Shown piece by piece: positions 4,842 through 34,721 of a stretch of DNA of 36,179 bases; positions within the stretch are counted from its first letter, which is position 1, and each line of letters starts with the position of its first letter. The notes beneath the pieces were generated by a model, which worked only from the letters and a program-made list of their open reading frames with translations, made no database searches and had not been told where the DNA came from. The stretch spans positions 1-36,179 of IMG/VR virus record IMGVR_UViG_3300042321_001619, one strand, 5' to 3'. Made by a program: the position numbers and the translations under genes. The DNA is from a virus.

Positions 4842-4845
<4 letters not shown>
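4501..4845 (+). CDS. gpFII-like head-tail connector
   Basis: This 114-residue protein resembles lambda gpFII-type head-tail joining proteins that give the filled head its tail-binding surface. The diagnostic stretch is LVLDDQIVSVENALTIKTSELGGLRYGDHLSVDGETYRVR, followed by MLSVVSLEKI: a small beta barrel built around the 'YGD-x-x-x-V-x-G-x-x-Y-x-V' pattern. GC content drops from here into the next gene. Its stop overlaps the next start (ATGA). Confidence 0.8.
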
Positions 4846-8861
<4,016 letters not shown>

Positions 8862-22449: not shown

Positions 22450-23304
22450 GTGACGATCACCGCCACCAGGCTCTCACCGCAGCTGCTGGAGATACGGATT
22501 CCCTATGTGGCGATGGACAATTCAGCCACATTCCTTCTGGCCTCAGATATTCACCTTGACAATCCAAAGTGCGACCGGGCGCTGTTCGCCAAGCACCTCA
22601 ACGAAATGCGCGACCGGAACGGCCATGCGCTGTTCTTTGGCGATGTGCTGTGCCTGATGCAGGGCAAGAAAGATCGGCGCGGCGGCAAGGGCGACATTCG
22701 GCCGGAGCACTTGGGCGGCAACTACTTCGATCTGGTGTTCGAGGAATCAGCGCAGTGGCTGAAACCTTGGCAGGATCGAATCCTGATGATGGGCGACGGC
22801 AACCACGAAACGGCGATCGTTAACCACCAGGAAATCGACCCGCTGGAGAACGTGGTGCGGCTGATGCGCACGGCCGGCGCGCCGACTGAGCACATGGGCT
22901 ACCAAGGGTTTGTTCGGTTCGTGTTTCACAAGCCAGACGGCGGCAAAGTGCGGCGCTGCACGCTGTTCTGGCACCACGGCGCATGGGGCGGGATCGTGAC
23001 CAAGGGCACGATGGGCGGCGGCCGATATTCGCAGGTCGCTCCGGATGCCGACCTGGTGGTGAACGGCCACAACCACGAACGCACGATCGTGGCGCACCCC
23101 TGCTACCGGGTGGCGGAAAACGGCAAGGTGTGGGTTGAGCAGCGCTGGCACCTGCAGACCGGCACGTACAAGCACGAGTTCGGCGGCACCGGCGGCTGGG
23201 CGGTGGAGCGGATCGTGATGCCGAAATCTCTAGGTGGTGTCTGGCTGACCCTCAAGCCACGGCGCAGTGGTGGCGTTGAGATCGTGATGACACCCACCGC
23301 CTAA
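22450..23304 (+). CDS. Calcineurin-like metallophosphoesterase
   Basis: The 284-residue protein carries the metallophosphoesterase motifs in order: SDIHLDN (Asp33, His35), FFGDV (Asp65), MGDGNHE (115-120), HH at 175-176 and NGHNHE (206-209). These bind two metal ions and hydrolyse phosphomonoesters or diesters; the substrate is unknown. The start is GTG at 22450 in the frame just after CCT. It follows the endolysin with a 37-base gap. Phage versions may act on nucleotides, phosphoproteins or nucleic acid ends. Confidence 0.85.
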   Translation: MTITATRLSPQLLEIRIPYVAMDNSATFLLASDIHLDNPKCDRALFAKHLNEMRDRNGHALFFGDVLCLMQGKKDRRGGKGDIRPEHLGGNYFDLVFEESAQWLKPWQDRILMMGDGNHETAIVNHQEIDPLENVVRLMRTAGAPTEHMGYQGFVRFVFHKPDGGKVRRCTLFWHHGAWGGIVTKGTMGGGRYSQVAPDADLVVNGHNHERTIVAHPCYRVAENGKVWVEQRWHLQTGTYKHEFGGTGGWAVERIVMPKSLGGVWLTLKPRRSGGVEIVMTPTA

Positions 23305-23768: not shown

Positions 23769-24764
23769 TTAGGCAACCGCCAGGGTGAGCTGCACCCCCA
23801 CCCGCACCCTCTGCCGCCGGCAGCGCTTCACCGCCAGAACCGGCACCCTGGCCACCGCCACCAACACCAGCTGAACCGACTGCGACGCCAGCGCCGCCTG
23901 CAGCCGCTCCAGCCGCACCTCCAGCGCCCGTGTCGAAAGCCCCTCCTGCTGGGCCAGCTCAGGCCGCGGCACCTCCACCCCGTCGAGACCCCAGGCCAGT
24001 GACAACAACCTGCGATCCTGCGGCGCCAACCTGGCGATCAGGCCGCGCAGCTGCTCTGCCTGGCGCCAGCGTTCGCGCTGTTCTTCTTCATCCTCTGGTG
24101 ACAGGTCCCATGTGGCCACGGTGCTGCCGAGCTCGAGGCCGTCCTCAGTCACCACCTGGTCGAGCGACCCGACCGGCCGGCCGTTCTCAACCACCTGCTC
24201 CAGCACCTTCAGGCTGACGCCCAGCTCTGCGGCGATCTCTGCCTGCGTTGGCGTGCGGTTCAGCTCGCGCTCCAGCCGCCGCGTGATCGGGCCCAGCTTC
24301 GCCAGGTGCTGGCAGTGGCTGCCGGGTATGGCAATGGCGCGGCCGTGCTGGTCCACCCAGCGGTTGATGGCCTGGCGAATCCACCAATAGGCGTAGGTGG
24401 AAAACCGGTAGCCCTTCGCCGGATCGAACCGCTCAGCGGCGGTGATCAGGCCCATGTTCCCCGCCTGGGTCAGATCTTCGCGGTCAAAGGACTTGGTGAG
24501 CCGGTGGCAGCGCTTGCTGATGTAGGCGATCACCAGCCGCAGGTTCGCCGAGACGAACCGGTCCCGCGCCCGCATGCCCCGGCGCCTGATCCCTGGCGGG
24601 CACGGGTCGGGATGGGTCTGCCATCGCTGAATTGCGGTGCCGAGTTCGATCTCTTCGGCAGGGGTGAGCAGCGGGATCCGACCAATCGAATCGAGCCACC
24701 AGGATTGGTTGGAGCTGGCCGGCACCGGACGAATTTTGACGGATCTGCTCCATTGTAGGTGCAA
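23769..24764 (-). CDS. Phage-encoded sigma-70 family factor (cyanobacterial RpoD-like)
   Basis: This 331-residue protein would bind host RNA polymerase and redirect it to selected promoters. Region 1.2 spans about 30-55 (IGRIPLLTPAEEIELGTAIQ). Region 2 spans about 65-150, including NLRLVIAYISKRC, DREDLTQAGNMGLITAAERF and the -10-reading helix FSTYAYWWIRQAINRW. Region 3 spans about 151-205 (RELNRTPTQAEIAAELGVS). Region 4 spans about 237-282 with a divergent -35 helix (PELAQQEGLSTRALEVRLER). A 49-residue Arg/Val-rich tail follows. The start is TTG, supported by AGGA 7 bases upstream; GTG at 24725 is the alternative. Its divergent upstream region holds promoter element P1. Region 2 looks host-like while region 4.2 is more diverged. 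Confidence 0.9.
   Translation of the reverse strand: MHLQWSRSVKIRPVPASSNQSWWLDSIGRIPLLTPAEEIELGTAIQRWQTHPDPCPPGIRRRGMRARDRFVSANLRLVIAYISKRCHRLTKSFDREDLTQAGNMGLITAAERFDPAKGYRFSTYAYWWIRQAINRWVDQHGRAIAIPGSHCQHLAKLGPITRRLERELNRTPTQAEIAAELGVSLKVLEQVVENGRPVGSLDQVVTEDGLELGSTVATWDLSPEDEEEQRERWRQAEQLRGLIARLAPQDRRLLSLAWGLDGVEVPRPELAQQEGLSTRALEVRLERLQAALASQSVQLVLVAVARVPVLAVKRCRRQRVRVGVQLTLAVA
24752..24757 (-). promoter_or_regulatory. TACAAT -10-like hexamer at sigma gene start
   Basis: On the minus strand TACAAT reads just inside the TTG start of the sigma gene. It would drive the gene only if translation starts at the downstream GTG (24725). It is listed because it bears on start choice and adjoins P1. 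Confidence 0.25.
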
Positions 24765-24787
24765 AACCGGTTCCTAAGCGGTACGAT
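24758..24787 (+). promoter_or_regulatory. Phage promoter-like element P1
   Basis: This is the first of three 30-bp elements. It starts GGTGCAAAACCGG, followed after 11 bases by TACGAT. Across P1, P2 and P3, 20 of 30 positions are identical, including all of GGTGCA, AACCGG, CC at 16-17, and T-A at the start and A-T at the end of the hexamer. The ATG of the + operon lies 33 bases after the hexamer. The usual -35 TTGACA is absent at 17-18 bp spacing, so recognition by a phage factor is likely. Confidence 0.7.
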
Positions 24788-24819: not shown

Positions 24820-25122
24820 ATGCAAACCCTCACCCCCCTGGAGTGCGAAGCCGCACTCTCCGATCTGATCCTGCAGGCCGCCCGGGCGTCCCTGCCGGCC
24901 CACGTTGATCACTTGATCGAGCTGCCCATCGTCGGCGAGCGGAACCAGCCGCTCATGCCGCTGCTGGTGGGGTTGGTCGATGCAGCGAAAGTCACCGCCA
25001 GCGCCATCGCGGACAACGCCTGGGACTCGGGTCAGGCCGTGCCAAAGGATCTCGCCGCCGACCTGCTGGCGGACCTGCGGGAGTGCATGAAGTTCGTCGG
25101 GCAATCGACGGAGGCGTTCTAA
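24820..25122 (+). CDS. First protein of P1 operon, unknown function
   Basis: This 100-residue acidic, helical protein starts MQTLTPLECEAALSDLILQA and ends with a helix pair (AADLLADLRECMKFVGQSTE). It is the first gene after promoter P1 and opens a run of overlapping or closely spaced small genes to 27168. No motif is recognised. Being first in a phage-specific operon, divergent from the sigma gene, makes a regulatory or host-takeover role plausible. Confidence 0.65.
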   Translation: MQTLTPLECEAALSDLILQAARASLPAHVDHLIELPIVGERNQPLMPLLVGLVDAAKVTASAIADNAWDSGQAVPKDLAADLLADLRECMKFVGQSTEAF

Positions 25123-27004: not shown

Positions 27005-27168
27005 TGGTGCGGTTGTGCAGCCCCCCGAAGACAGTGCGTGAAGCGCTGCTCTCAATGCTCAAGAGCTACGAGAAAGAGGTTCGATCGGGTCGCCACGTTC
27101 CCCCACCGTTACCGATCGAAGAACGGCCTGCATCACAGTTCGCTGATCCTGTGGCGAGCCGGACGTGA
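27004..27168 (+). CDS. Small ORF at end of P1 operon, overlaps integrase 3' end
   Basis: This 54-residue ORF starts ATG inside the previous stop (TGATG) and encodes MVRLCSPPKTVREALLSMLK, then a basic stretch. It overlaps the convergent recombinase by about 110 bases. The start coupling supports it, but the long antisense overlap lowers confidence. No domain seen. Confidence 0.4.
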   Translation: MVRLCSPPKTVREALLSMLKSYEKEVRSGRHVPPPLPIEERPASQFADPVASRT

Positions 27169-28378
27169 AGAACCGCGGATCCTGCATCGCCCTGTAGGCA
27201 GCAGGATCCACCGCCGACTGCTCCACCCTCCGCAGCGCCTCGATCCGCTGGCGCTGCTCAGCCACCGCTGCCGCCATCGCCCGATTCTCGGGGTTGCGTG
27301 CGGCCATTCGCTCCATTAGCTCCAGCTCATCGGCCATCGCCGCCACTGCCGGATCCTGGGCCTGGGGCTCAGCCAGCAGCAGCGCCAGACGCCCGGCCTC
27401 AGCCACGCAGGCCTCGACAACAACTGGCAGGATTCGATCCTCACGGGCGCCGCCTCGAGCTGTGCAGAGCCGATGCCTGCACCGCCACCAGGCAACGCCA
27501 TTCGAGGTGTTCCGCCGCAGCAGATGGCCGCATGATCTGCACCGCAGCAGCCCCGTAAGTGCATGAGCCACTTCGGTGCTGCTGGCGTTTCTGAATCGAT
27601 TGGTCGGCCGCCGCAGCAGATCAGCGAGCTCCCGCCAGTCCTGTTCGCTGATCAGTGCCGGGTGCTGGTCGCAGAGGATCTCGCCCCAGCGCTGGCCCCA
27701 GCCCTTGCCTGACTTCTTGTCGAGGTGGTGGCCGATGTGCCCGCGGATCACGGGATTCACGAACCAGGCCTGCAGGCTGGTGGCGGCCGGCGTCCAGCTG
27801 CACCACCCCGGCAGCGTGCGTGAGACTGCCGCGAAGCTCCCCAGCCGGCGCAGATCCCGCAGCACCCGCAGCGCCTGGGGCCACTGCTCAGGGTGCGGCT
27901 GCAGCCGGTGCCCTGGGCCTGCCTGGTAGCCGAACGGTTTGCGCCGGCGCAGGTGGCGGCCCTCGGCACGGTAGACGGCGAACTGTCGCCGCAGCCTCAG
28001 GCTCAGCATGCGGGACTCCATCTCTGCCAGGCCGGTCTGCAGCCGGGCCATCAGGAATCCCTGGGGTGTGACTGTCTCGATCGCCCCGCCGTCCAGGGCT
28101 CGGACAGTGACGCCTTGGGCCTCGCACTGGGTTAGGAGGGTGTCGGTGTAGGCCGCGTCACGCCCGAGCCGGTCCACGCGGGTCACAAGCAGCTCGCGGA
28201 CCTGCCCGGCCCGGACCATCGCCATCACTTCCAGTAGGCCATCGCGGTCCGTGCTCCGTCCGGTCTCGATGTCAGTGATTACCCGGCTGCAGCCGGCAGC
28301 ATCGAGGCGGCTGACCTGAGCAGGGAGGCTGTCCGCTTGATCCTCCTTGCTGACCCGGGCGTAGCCGATGACGTGCAT
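27059..28378 (-). CDS. Large serine recombinase (integrase)
   Basis: This 439-residue protein is a serine site-specific recombinase. It opens MHVIGYARVSKEDQ with catalytic Ser10, and has Arg67, Asp69, Arg70 and Arg73 in RVDRLGRD. The long helix starts near 104 (PQGFLMARLQTGLAEMESR). Recombinase domain residues are about 145-260. A zinc ribbon uses Cys280, Cys283, Cys300 and Cys305, followed by a coiled coil (about 330-400). It resembles the XisF/large-serine type found in cyanobacterial elements, a family-level inference. It most likely integrates and excises this phage. The gene lies between the P1 operon and the early minus operon, the usual place for an attP next to the integrase start. 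Confidence 0.92.
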   Translation of the reverse strand: MHVIGYARVSKEDQADSLPAQVSRLDAAGCSRVITDIETGRSTDRDGLLEVMAMVRAGQVRELLVTRVDRLGRDAAYTDTLLTQCEAQGVTVRALDGGAIETVTPQGFLMARLQTGLAEMESRMLSLRLRRQFAVYRAEGRHLRRRKPFGYQAGPGHRLQPHPEQWPQALRVLRDLRRLGSFAAVSRTLPGWCSWTPAATSLQAWFVNPVIRGHIGHHLDKKSGKGWGQRWGEILCDQHPALISEQDWRELADLLRRPTNRFRNASSTEVAHALTGLLRCRSCGHLLRRNTSNGVAWWRCRHRLCTARGGAREDRILPVVVEACVAEAGRLALLLAEPQAQDPAVAAMADELELMERMAARNPENRAMAAAVAEQRQRIEALRRVEQSAVDPAAYRAMQDPRFFTSGSPQDQRTVMQAVLRSVTVGERGDPIEPLSRSS

Positions 28379-29527: not shown

Positions 29528-29557
29528 ATCATACCGGGTGGGTTCCGGTTCTGCACC
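29528..29557 (-). promoter_or_regulatory. Phage promoter-like element P2
   Basis: On the minus strand the element reads GGTGCAGAACCGG, then after 11 bases TATGAT. It faces the membrane-HTH gene at 29295-29474. The sequence matches P3 at every one of the first 17 positions. Spacing from box to hexamer is identical in the three copies. Confidence 0.7.
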
Positions 29558-30592: not shown

Positions 30593-30732
30593 CGGGGGGT
30601 GGGGTTGTGGATCCGGTCATTCACGATCCGCCGCAGCAGATCGTTCATCCCCTCGCCAGGGCGGAGCTGGCGGCGGAGGGCCTCGACCTCGGGGAGGGTG
30701 AGGACGATGGTTAGGCGGCGGGTTTCGGTCAT
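30589..30732 (-). CDS. Small ribbon-helix-helix-like protein
   Basis: This 47-residue ORF encodes MTETRRLTIVLTLPEVEALR and continues with RRQLRPGEGMNDLLRRIVND. A short strand followed by two helices and a basic end is the pattern of ribbon-helix-helix DNA-binding proteins, such as Arc/CopG. It overlaps the methyltransferase stop and the next start (ATGA). It is shorter than the usual ORF threshold but well placed. Confidence 0.6.
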   Translation of the reverse strand: MTETRRLTIVLTLPEVEALRRQLRPGEGMNDLLRRIVNDRIHNPTPR

Positions 30733-31712
30733 GGTGTGGTGAGGGTGAGAAGTGACGGCTGCTCCGTGCCGATACAGGCCGGGGACAGCCAGAGCCGTTC
30801 GCGGCGACCGTTAATCGGGTTGACGCTGTAGCCAGCCCCTCGGCCCGCTTTGCCCTCGGTGACGCTCCAGCCGTGGGCCAGCAGGGCGTCGTGCTCATCG
30901 TCGTAGCCGCAGAGGATGATCCGCAGCTCTCGCGGCGCAGCAGTGCACCACTCGCGCACGCCAACGGCAACATCACCGCCGGCATGAGCGTACAGATCGC
31001 CGCTGGTGGCGTAGGGCGGGTCGAGGAAGACGGCGCGGCTGCCGTCTCCACCGGTGCCAGATCGGGTGACAGATGGCTTGACCACCCGCTCCCATGATCC
31101 GCAGGTGACCCGAACCCGATGCAGCCGATCCGTCAAGGCCTGCATGTAAGCCCGCAGCTGGCCTTGCCCTGCGTCGCCCAGGTGGGGCAACTCTCGGTTG
31201 ACGCCTTGCCCTGCGTCGCCCAGGTGGGGCAACTTTCGGTTGACGCCGCGCCCTGCGTTGCCCACTTTCCGCAGGTGGCCGTCTACCACCCGCCACGGGC
31301 CAGGGCCGAATGGGTCGCCGATCCCGCAGGCCAGGACATAGAGCCACCAGCCGGCGGCCTTCGCATCGTGCGCCTCGGGGTCGCCCTCCAGCCACGCCAC
31401 CAGATCAGGCGTGCGGCGTTCCTGCAGCCACGCCAGGCGGGCGTGATAGTCGATCTCAGCCACCGGTCCCCACGCTGCAGCGGCGACGGCATCAGGGCTC
31501 AGCTGGATTGACCGCCAGGTGTTGACCAGCCAGCCGTCAGCATCGTTCAGGGTTTCGACCCGGCGCCCCTTGAATGACGGCCTGGCCAGCAGCACGGCGG
31601 CTGATCCGGCGAATGGCTCGACGTACCCCGACGGGTCGCCTAGAGCCTGCCAGATTCGTGGTGCGGCGCGGCGCTTGCCGCCGAAGTATGGGAACGGCGC
31701 GGCGAGACTCAT
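30729..31712 (-). CDS. D12-class adenine-specific DNA methyltransferase
   Basis: The 327-residue protein is a Dam-like N6-adenine methyltransferase. It has the FGGK motif (10-13), the SAM-binding VEPFAGS (31-37), and catalytic DPPY (231-234) in the D12 alpha order. A region of about 34 residues (151-184) is a tandem repeat of roughly 14 residues (NRKLPHLGDAGQGV) inserted before the catalytic half. It may protect phage DNA from host restriction or alter regulation. No partner restriction enzyme is seen, so it is probably an orphan. Its start overlaps the upstream HTH gene's stop. Confidence 0.9.
   Translation of the reverse strand: MSLAAPFPYFGGKRRAAPRIWQALGDPSGYVEPFAGSAAVLLARPSFKGRRVETLNDADGWLVNTWRSIQLSPDAVAAAAWGPVAEIDYHARLAWLQERRTPDLVAWLEGDPEAHDAKAAGWWLYVLACGIGDPFGPGPWRVVDGHLRKVGNAGRGVNRKLPHLGDAGQGVNRELPHLGDAGQGQLRAYMQALTDRLHRVRVTCGSWERVVKPSVTRSGTGGDGSRAVFLDPPYATSGDLYAHAGGDVAVGVREWCTAAPRELRIILCGYDDEHDALLAHGWSVTEGKAGRGAGYSVNPINGRRERLWLSPACIGTEQPSLLTLTTP
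31162..31264 (-). repeat. 42-bp coding tandem repeat inside the methyltransferase
   Basis: Two 42-bp units (31162-31203 and 31204-31245) differ at one base, followed by a partial third unit. Each unit is 14 codons, so copy-number changes keep the frame and would lengthen the loop between the SAM-binding and catalytic halves. Confidence 0.9.
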
Positions 31713-32032
31713 CCCATCCCCCTCAACCCATGCACCCGATACCCGCCCCAGCCGGTGGTGATGTCGGCCAGGCCGGCGGCGGCCACGGCATTCACCCGGC
31801 GCGACACGGTGGACTGATCACAGCCCCACGCCTCGCGCAGAGTGGCGGTGGACGCGACGCCACAGCCGCCGGTGAGCACCCGGATGTGCAGGTAGTCCAT
31901 CAGCACCCGATCGCTGATCGTGCGGCGCATGGCCACCAGCTGGCGGATCGGCATGGCAGCCGGGCGCTGGGCCTCCATGCGGAGCTGGGCCAGCACGGTC
32001 TCGGCGGCGATGCGGAGTTTCGTAGCGCTCAT
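31709..32032 (-). CDS. Winged-helix/HTH DNA-binding protein
   Basis: This 107-residue protein has a C-terminal HTH (REAWGCDQSTVSRRVNAVAA followed by AGLADITTGWGGYRVHG). That resembles MarR- or replication-initiator-like winged helices that read DNA and finish with a hairpin. It is placed between the methyltransferase and small ORFs in the early operon, so a regulator is likely. It overlaps its neighbours (ATGA both sides). Confidence 0.65.
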   Translation of the reverse strand: MSATKLRIAAETVLAQLRMEAQRPAAMPIRQLVAMRRTISDRVLMDYLHIRVLTGGCGVASTATLREAWGCDQSTVSRRVNAVAAAGLADITTGWGGYRVHGLRGMG

Positions 32033-34691: not shown

Positions 34692-34721
34692 ATTGTAGCG
34701 CTAAGGTTCCGGTTCTGCACC
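34692..34721 (-). promoter_or_regulatory. Phage promoter-like element P3
   Basis: On the minus strand it reads GGTGCAGAACCGG, then after 11 bases TACAAT at 34692-34697. The exonuclease start is 25 bases downstream, a normal leader length. It overlaps a 9-bp inverted repeat (34713-34736), so a repressor or activator could compete here. Confidence 0.7.

Follow-up and report, generated by a model that had tools for sequence, protein, structure and literature searches.

The window, by which we mean the whole stretch of DNA analysed (36,179 bases), is an uncultured virus record whose hosts are freshwater Synechococcus-type cyanobacteria. A preliminary description had called the virus a temperate-type siphophage, which is reasonable given its lambda-type portal, tape-measure domain, endolysin, XisF-like serine recombinase, RecE/YqaJ exonuclease and SSB. 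Megablast of the window DNA against named phages detected no direct homology. The serine recombinase (27059-28378, minus strand) has its best match in XisF, the recombinase that excises the fdxN element, at a score under the curated cut-off (E = 8e-66). A DNA methyltransferase ORF (30729-31712, minus strand) has family matches split between residues 1-75 and 186-309, and is possibly interrupted or carrying an insert. Two repeat arrays were also observed: GAACCA hexamer runs at 5295-5437, within a tail-fibre-like gene (4842-8861), and a 42-bp tandem repeat present three times at 31161-31286, the first two copies being 98% identical.

The same description had placed a sigma-70 factor at 23769-24764, and this holds: an ORF on the minus strand fills the span, Pfam, PHROGs and NCBIfam agree on its identity, and the plus-strand reading is interrupted by stops. 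The gene is convergent with the end of the late plus-strand block and divergent from a small plus-strand gene at 24820. Its nearest named relative is SLBS1_A33 of Synechococcus phage S-LBS1 (ATS93205.1; genome MG271909), with 78% identity over 81% of the query and the same genomic placement; the cyanosiphophages S-CBS1, S-CBS3 and KBS-S-2A also carry a sigma gene near the endolysin end. The S-LBS1 record end upstream of terS (L362, 34237-34641) additionally contains numerous TGCCTAACCT repeats together with a duplication exceeding 100 bases; these are perhaps an origin, packaging site or terminal repeat.

Although the ORF extends to a TTG at 24764, translation probably starts at the GTG at 24725, giving a coding sequence of about 318 residues (23769-24725, minus strand). 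We place the start there because of stops in relatives, a conserved promoter-like block and the S-LBS1 annotation. Six close relatives (L002, L003, L004, L005, L007 and L008) have an in-frame stop at most four codons past the TTG (TTG-CAC-CT.), and the TTG itself sits within the promoter-like block (TGCACC-TACAAT). The equivalent of GTG 24725, from which the S-LBS1 protein is annotated, is retained by most close relatives and lies about 25 bases downstream of a -10-like hexamer that reads TACAAT, TATGAT or TATAGT among them.

The promoter-like region of the sigma gene (24752-24774, minus strand) consists of the 17-bp GGAACCGGTTTTGCACC followed by TACAAT and is conserved in close relatives; comparison of the relatives also revealed a -10-like TACGAT (24782-24787, plus strand) of a divergent promoter towards the gene at 24820. 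Allowing up to three mismatches, the window has seven matches to the 17-bp element, compared to 0.44 expected. As GGWWCCGGTTCTGCACC, it stands beside -10-like hexamers at 24758-24774 (minus strand), 29541-29557 (plus strand) and 34705-34721 (plus strand). Relatives retain the element ahead of sigma and usually at one further site, and it resembles an operator or promoter sequence common to early or replication genes. In S-LBS1, two copies of a divergent promoter-like block are present, one at 22977 (minus strand) before sigma and the other at 31853 (plus strand) between the helicase A50 and the A51/A52 primase-polymerase. Because a block of the same design precedes sigma and the primase-polymerase/helicase genes, this arrangement suggests that the S-LBS1 sigma is expressed together with replication genes, as would be expected of a late-gene sigma.

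Profile searches delimit most of the domains expected of a full sigma factor. Region 1.2 (24621-24695; PF00140, ORF residues 24-48, E = 2e-8), region 2 (24339-24554; PF04542, E = 5e-18) and region 3 (24090-24305; PF04539, E = 4e-12), all on the minus strand, matched above cut-off. Region 2, which mediates core binding and -10 melting, was earlier termed host-like; it contains FSTYAYWWIRQAINRW, and the promoter-melting core is retained. Regions 1.2, 2, 3 and 4 had all been considered recognizable, which Pfam bears out for the first three; region 4 gave no Pfam match and is represented by AlphaFold2 helices only (23880-24098, minus strand; residues 210-290 of the 318-residue model). These helices were modeled with pLDDT of about 82-96, confidence being high up to about residue 280, and Foldseek with the predicted fold returned near whole-length matches to principal sigmas. 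Region 4 also evolves under purifying selection among close relatives (pN/pS 0.26-0.38). Its fold appears intact in the prediction.

We gathered relatives by scanning viral contigs with the window protein (93% to about 35% identity) and then performing four more scans; pooling the loci yielded 143 unique full-length sigmas, which form 52 clusters at 70%. A tree was built on core columns, excluding region 4.2 and the tail, with 30 host sigmas added (SigA, group 2 and other paralogues from four picocyanobacteria). The window protein falls in a 24-row clade of phage proteins only, with SH-aLRT support of 88, which is moderate, at the base of the clade and 98-99 at inner nodes; as the tree comes from a fast search with a single measure of support, its deepest branches are unsure. 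The window sigma belongs to no host SigA-SigE group. It resembles cyanobacterial SigA and the group 2/3 sigmas (SigB-SigF) in regions 1.2, 2 and 3 and in the WWIRQ core, but differs from them in its separate phage clade, lost -35 helix and added tail. The earlier suggestion of a captured host factor is therefore unsupported as far as recent capture is concerned, since the protein lies within a phage-only clade outside the sampled host groups.

The -35-reading segment of region 4 is indeed diverged, as first proposed. The recognition helix reads STRALEV (23916-23936, minus strand) against SRERVRQ in hosts, and all four host -35-contact positions differ. Sampled host sigmas retain three or four of these positions, the sole exception being L347, a very divergent row. 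Like the hosts, most other phage sigmas keep the R-E/D...R-Q pattern of SRERVRQ. Within the window clade, the helices read STRALEV, STRQLEH, KPARVDG, RMREVEG and the like, with zero or one of the four contact positions retained, except in L052 and L179, which retain three. The extended -10 segment of region 3 has also changed in the alignment, from VHLYETI in host SigA to GSHCQHL. From standard sigma-70 knowledge, these changes in the region 4 helix and region 3.0 should alter promoter choice. Loss of the SRERVRQ helix was also seen in a separate group of phage sigmas that has no QLxL tail (L134, L218, L214, L195, L223, L227 and L237).

Downstream of region 4 is a tail, initially described as 49 Arg/Val-rich residues; it exists, but extends about 36-39 residues past the last helix and contains two QLxL motifs that flank a basic linker. 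Motif 1 (QLVLVAV; 23853-23873), the linker (23793-23852) and motif 2 (QLTL of the C-terminal QLTLAVA; 23781-23792) are all on the minus strand. Past the last helix, AlphaFold2 modeled the tail with low confidence and without secondary structure; it is predicted to be disordered, as expected for a linear motif. A folded beta-hairpin tail was also considered and is not predicted by AlphaFold2, low confidence being weak evidence. Among 22 close relatives, motif 1 (VQLVLVAV) is invariant, with a pN of 0.001 against a pS of 0.41. Motif 2 likewise keeps its Q, L and L in 22 of 22, although both Leu codons show synonymous substitutions; in contrast, x varies between V, R, A, T and S and the next residue between V, A, E, Q and I. 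The linker evolves fast (pN/pS 0.76). Such invariant anchors within a drifting, flexible tail fit a linear binding motif.

The bacterial sliding-clamp-binding motif (QLxLF or QLxLxF) has QLxL as its core, and its consensus is Q-aliphatic-x-[L/M]-[F/L] or one residue longer (PMC11139829). Across the window clade, the tails vary in length and are unalignable between lineages, yet they share QLxL-type patterns: QLSLF, QLALF, QLRLF, QLELL, QLTLL, QLSLL, QLVLPL, QPTLPL, QLALI and QLTLAVA. Several relatives have the clamp consensus in perfect or near-perfect form (QLSLF, QLALF, QLRLF, QLVLPL and QLELL). Counting lineages of under 70% identity as independent and cutting tails after region 4, we found QLxL in 11 of 15 clade lineages compared to 0.42 expected, and the strict consensus in 8 of 15 compared to 0.45 expected; for neither did any of 5,000 shuffles score as high. 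The four lineages without QLxL have looser forms (QPTLPL, QISLPI/QYALPL, QLTI and QLVINL). Three extra queries were picked after the tails had been seen, but the main motif-bearing lineages were already present in the first scan, in which the window protein was the query.

Outside the clade, QLxL occurs in 3 of 37 other phage sigmas (Fisher p = 6e-6 against the window clade), and the last 60 residues contain it in 10 of 437 other phage proteins of the same loci and in none of 60 host sigma ORFs. The strict consensus in the last 60 residues of all 52 sigma lineages is enriched only modestly (6 compared to 2.0 expected; 31 of 2,000 shuffles as high). Because the strong signal is confined to the QLxL core within the window clade, we restrict the claim to that clade. 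Even there, the window's own motifs fail the strict consensus, which favours F or L where they have V or A (position 5) and A or V (position 6); in this F/L-less subclade, clamp binding may be weak or the clamp reading may be wrong. Sigmas of the KBS-S-2A type (L085, L127 and L164-L171) keep SRERVRQ or SRERIRQ and end in QLPLIP, QLTLIQ, QLTLVQ or QGTLPLL; they may have acquired a clamp-binding end separately. Helix loss and motif gain are thus not strictly coupled: the L134/L214 phage group lacks both helix and motif, and the KBS type combines a motif with SRERVRQ.

Like the window protein, the S-LBS1 sigma has a GTG start, a diverged helix and a tail with two QLxL motifs, and its gene likewise converges on the end of the late genes; in the accessible part of its description, it is annotated only as a cyanobacterial RpoD-like sigma, with no clamp link made (PMC6157547). 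In contrast, the sigmas of S-CBS1, S-CBS3 and KBS-S-2A (rpsD4/RpoD; 32-35% identity), which lie near the same genome junction, keep SRERIRQ, SREAIRQ or SRERVRQ. Those of S-CBS1 and S-CBS3 are without the tail motif, and that of KBS-S-2A ends in QLPLIP.

A precedent for a clamp-bound sigma exists in phage T4 (PMC9690074). Its sigma-family protein gp55 has a clamp motif at the C-terminus, attached through a variable linker, does not read the -35 element and drives replication-coupled late transcription (PMC2988020, PMC7892883). The window protein is likewise a phage sigma-family protein with a clamp-motif-like tail on a variable linker, and would work alike. However, gp55 is a reduced, highly diverged sigma that acts with gp33 and a phage-coded trimeric clamp (gp45), whereas the window encodes a full-length sigma with a predicted region 4. 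A bacterial-type clamp (PF02768) was absent from the 19 phage records searched, S-LBS1 and KBS-S-2A included, T4-type clamp families being outside this search; the host's dimeric clamp would therefore be used, unlike in T4. DnaN is present in all four hosts tested, and Cyanobium DnaN retains TDGHRL of the clamp pocket as listed in PMC11139829. Host Pol III alpha carries QGNLF or QGNLL, probably its internal clamp site, which is close to the QGTLPLL ends of KBS-type sigmas.

We propose, at about even confidence, that the window protein is a late-gene sigma tethered to host DnaN, similar to T4 gp55 but built from a full sigma and a host clamp. In this model, the phage sigma-70 would take over the host RNA polymerase once early infection is past, with regions 1.2-3 binding core polymerase and opening a -10-type promoter. 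Region 4 would probably still be folded and docking, its helix no longer providing host -35 reading, while the QLxL motifs of the flexible tail, placed around the basic linker, would enter the hydrophobic pocket of DnaN. Clamps that stay behind on phage DNA after replication would then hold the holoenzyme at the late promoters of the phage or bring it to them, so that late transcription would be tied to DNA replication, as it is with gp55. A search for late promoters upstream of the terS/terL terminase genes of S-LBS1 and ten relatives found nothing convincing. This model modifies the original view of a factor retuned to phage promoters: promoter reading most likely does differ from that of hosts, the -35 helix being diverged and the region 2 melting core kept, but the conserved clamp-binding-like motif of the tail changes the likely mechanism, from a retuned -35 contact to -35 reading that is possibly lost and replaced by tethering.

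The tail could have a partner other than the clamp, and other explanations for the protein need to be weighed. The most substantial, although doubtful, is an ordinary phage sigma with its own promoter class, in which region 4 would have been adapted to a -35 or upstream element specific to the phage, the basic tail would add DNA contacts and QLxL would be structural or bind a non-clamp partner. The continuing selection on region 4 and its intact predicted fold agree with this explanation, as do the Arg/Lys-rich linker and the conserved promoter-like block with its 17-bp element ahead of the gene. It leaves unexplained, however, why QLxL, including perfect clamp forms, is present in the unalignable tails of many lineages and why x is free to vary within it.

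We consider it improbable that the tail end is instead a regulated-degradation signal or a dock for another host protein (a protease adaptor, SSB or an anti-sigma) that limits the lifetime of the sigma. Several tails do end in small hydrophobic residues (AVA, LVA, FAA or AIA), somewhat like ssrA, but the final residues vary across the clade (LPLT, GPLE, LELL, LRLF and LALI) while QLxL is kept, and motif 1 is internal. Least probable is the recent capture of a host group-2 sigma, which would act on host-like promoters in lysogeny or infection. The WWIRQ core is retained and the best NCBIfam match is a cyanobacterial RpoD/SigA-type model, yet the score is 178 bits against a cut-off of 384, the protein falling below the curated cut-offs of the RpoD/SigA-SigD models; the long branches and lost -35 residues also argue against recent capture, and the phage-only clade in the tree disfavours it.

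Returning to the clamp-tethered sigma, a broader version of the model can be put forward more tentatively, at somewhat below even confidence. These phages would have a second, independently evolved form of clamp-activated transcription, in which the sigmas of the QLxL clade and, separately, those of the KBS type bind host DnaN, the two-motif tail possibly grips both pockets of the dimer, and late genes are transcribed only from replicating DNA. In the open-access literature, outside which most subscription papers lie, we found no phage sigma with a clamp-binding motif beyond T4, and clamp-activated transcription is described there only for T4-type phages; a structural study of the T4 system predicts further natural cases (PMC7892883). 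If the sigma described here binds the host clamp, it would be a natural clamp-activated case beyond T4 that is built differently, with a full sigma and a host clamp. It would lie in a cyanophage group that is common in metagenomes and has a cultured member in S-LBS1. An unremarked annotation as an RpoD-like sigma thereby becomes a concrete hypothesis which, if true, would hint at how small cyanosiphophages time their late genes.
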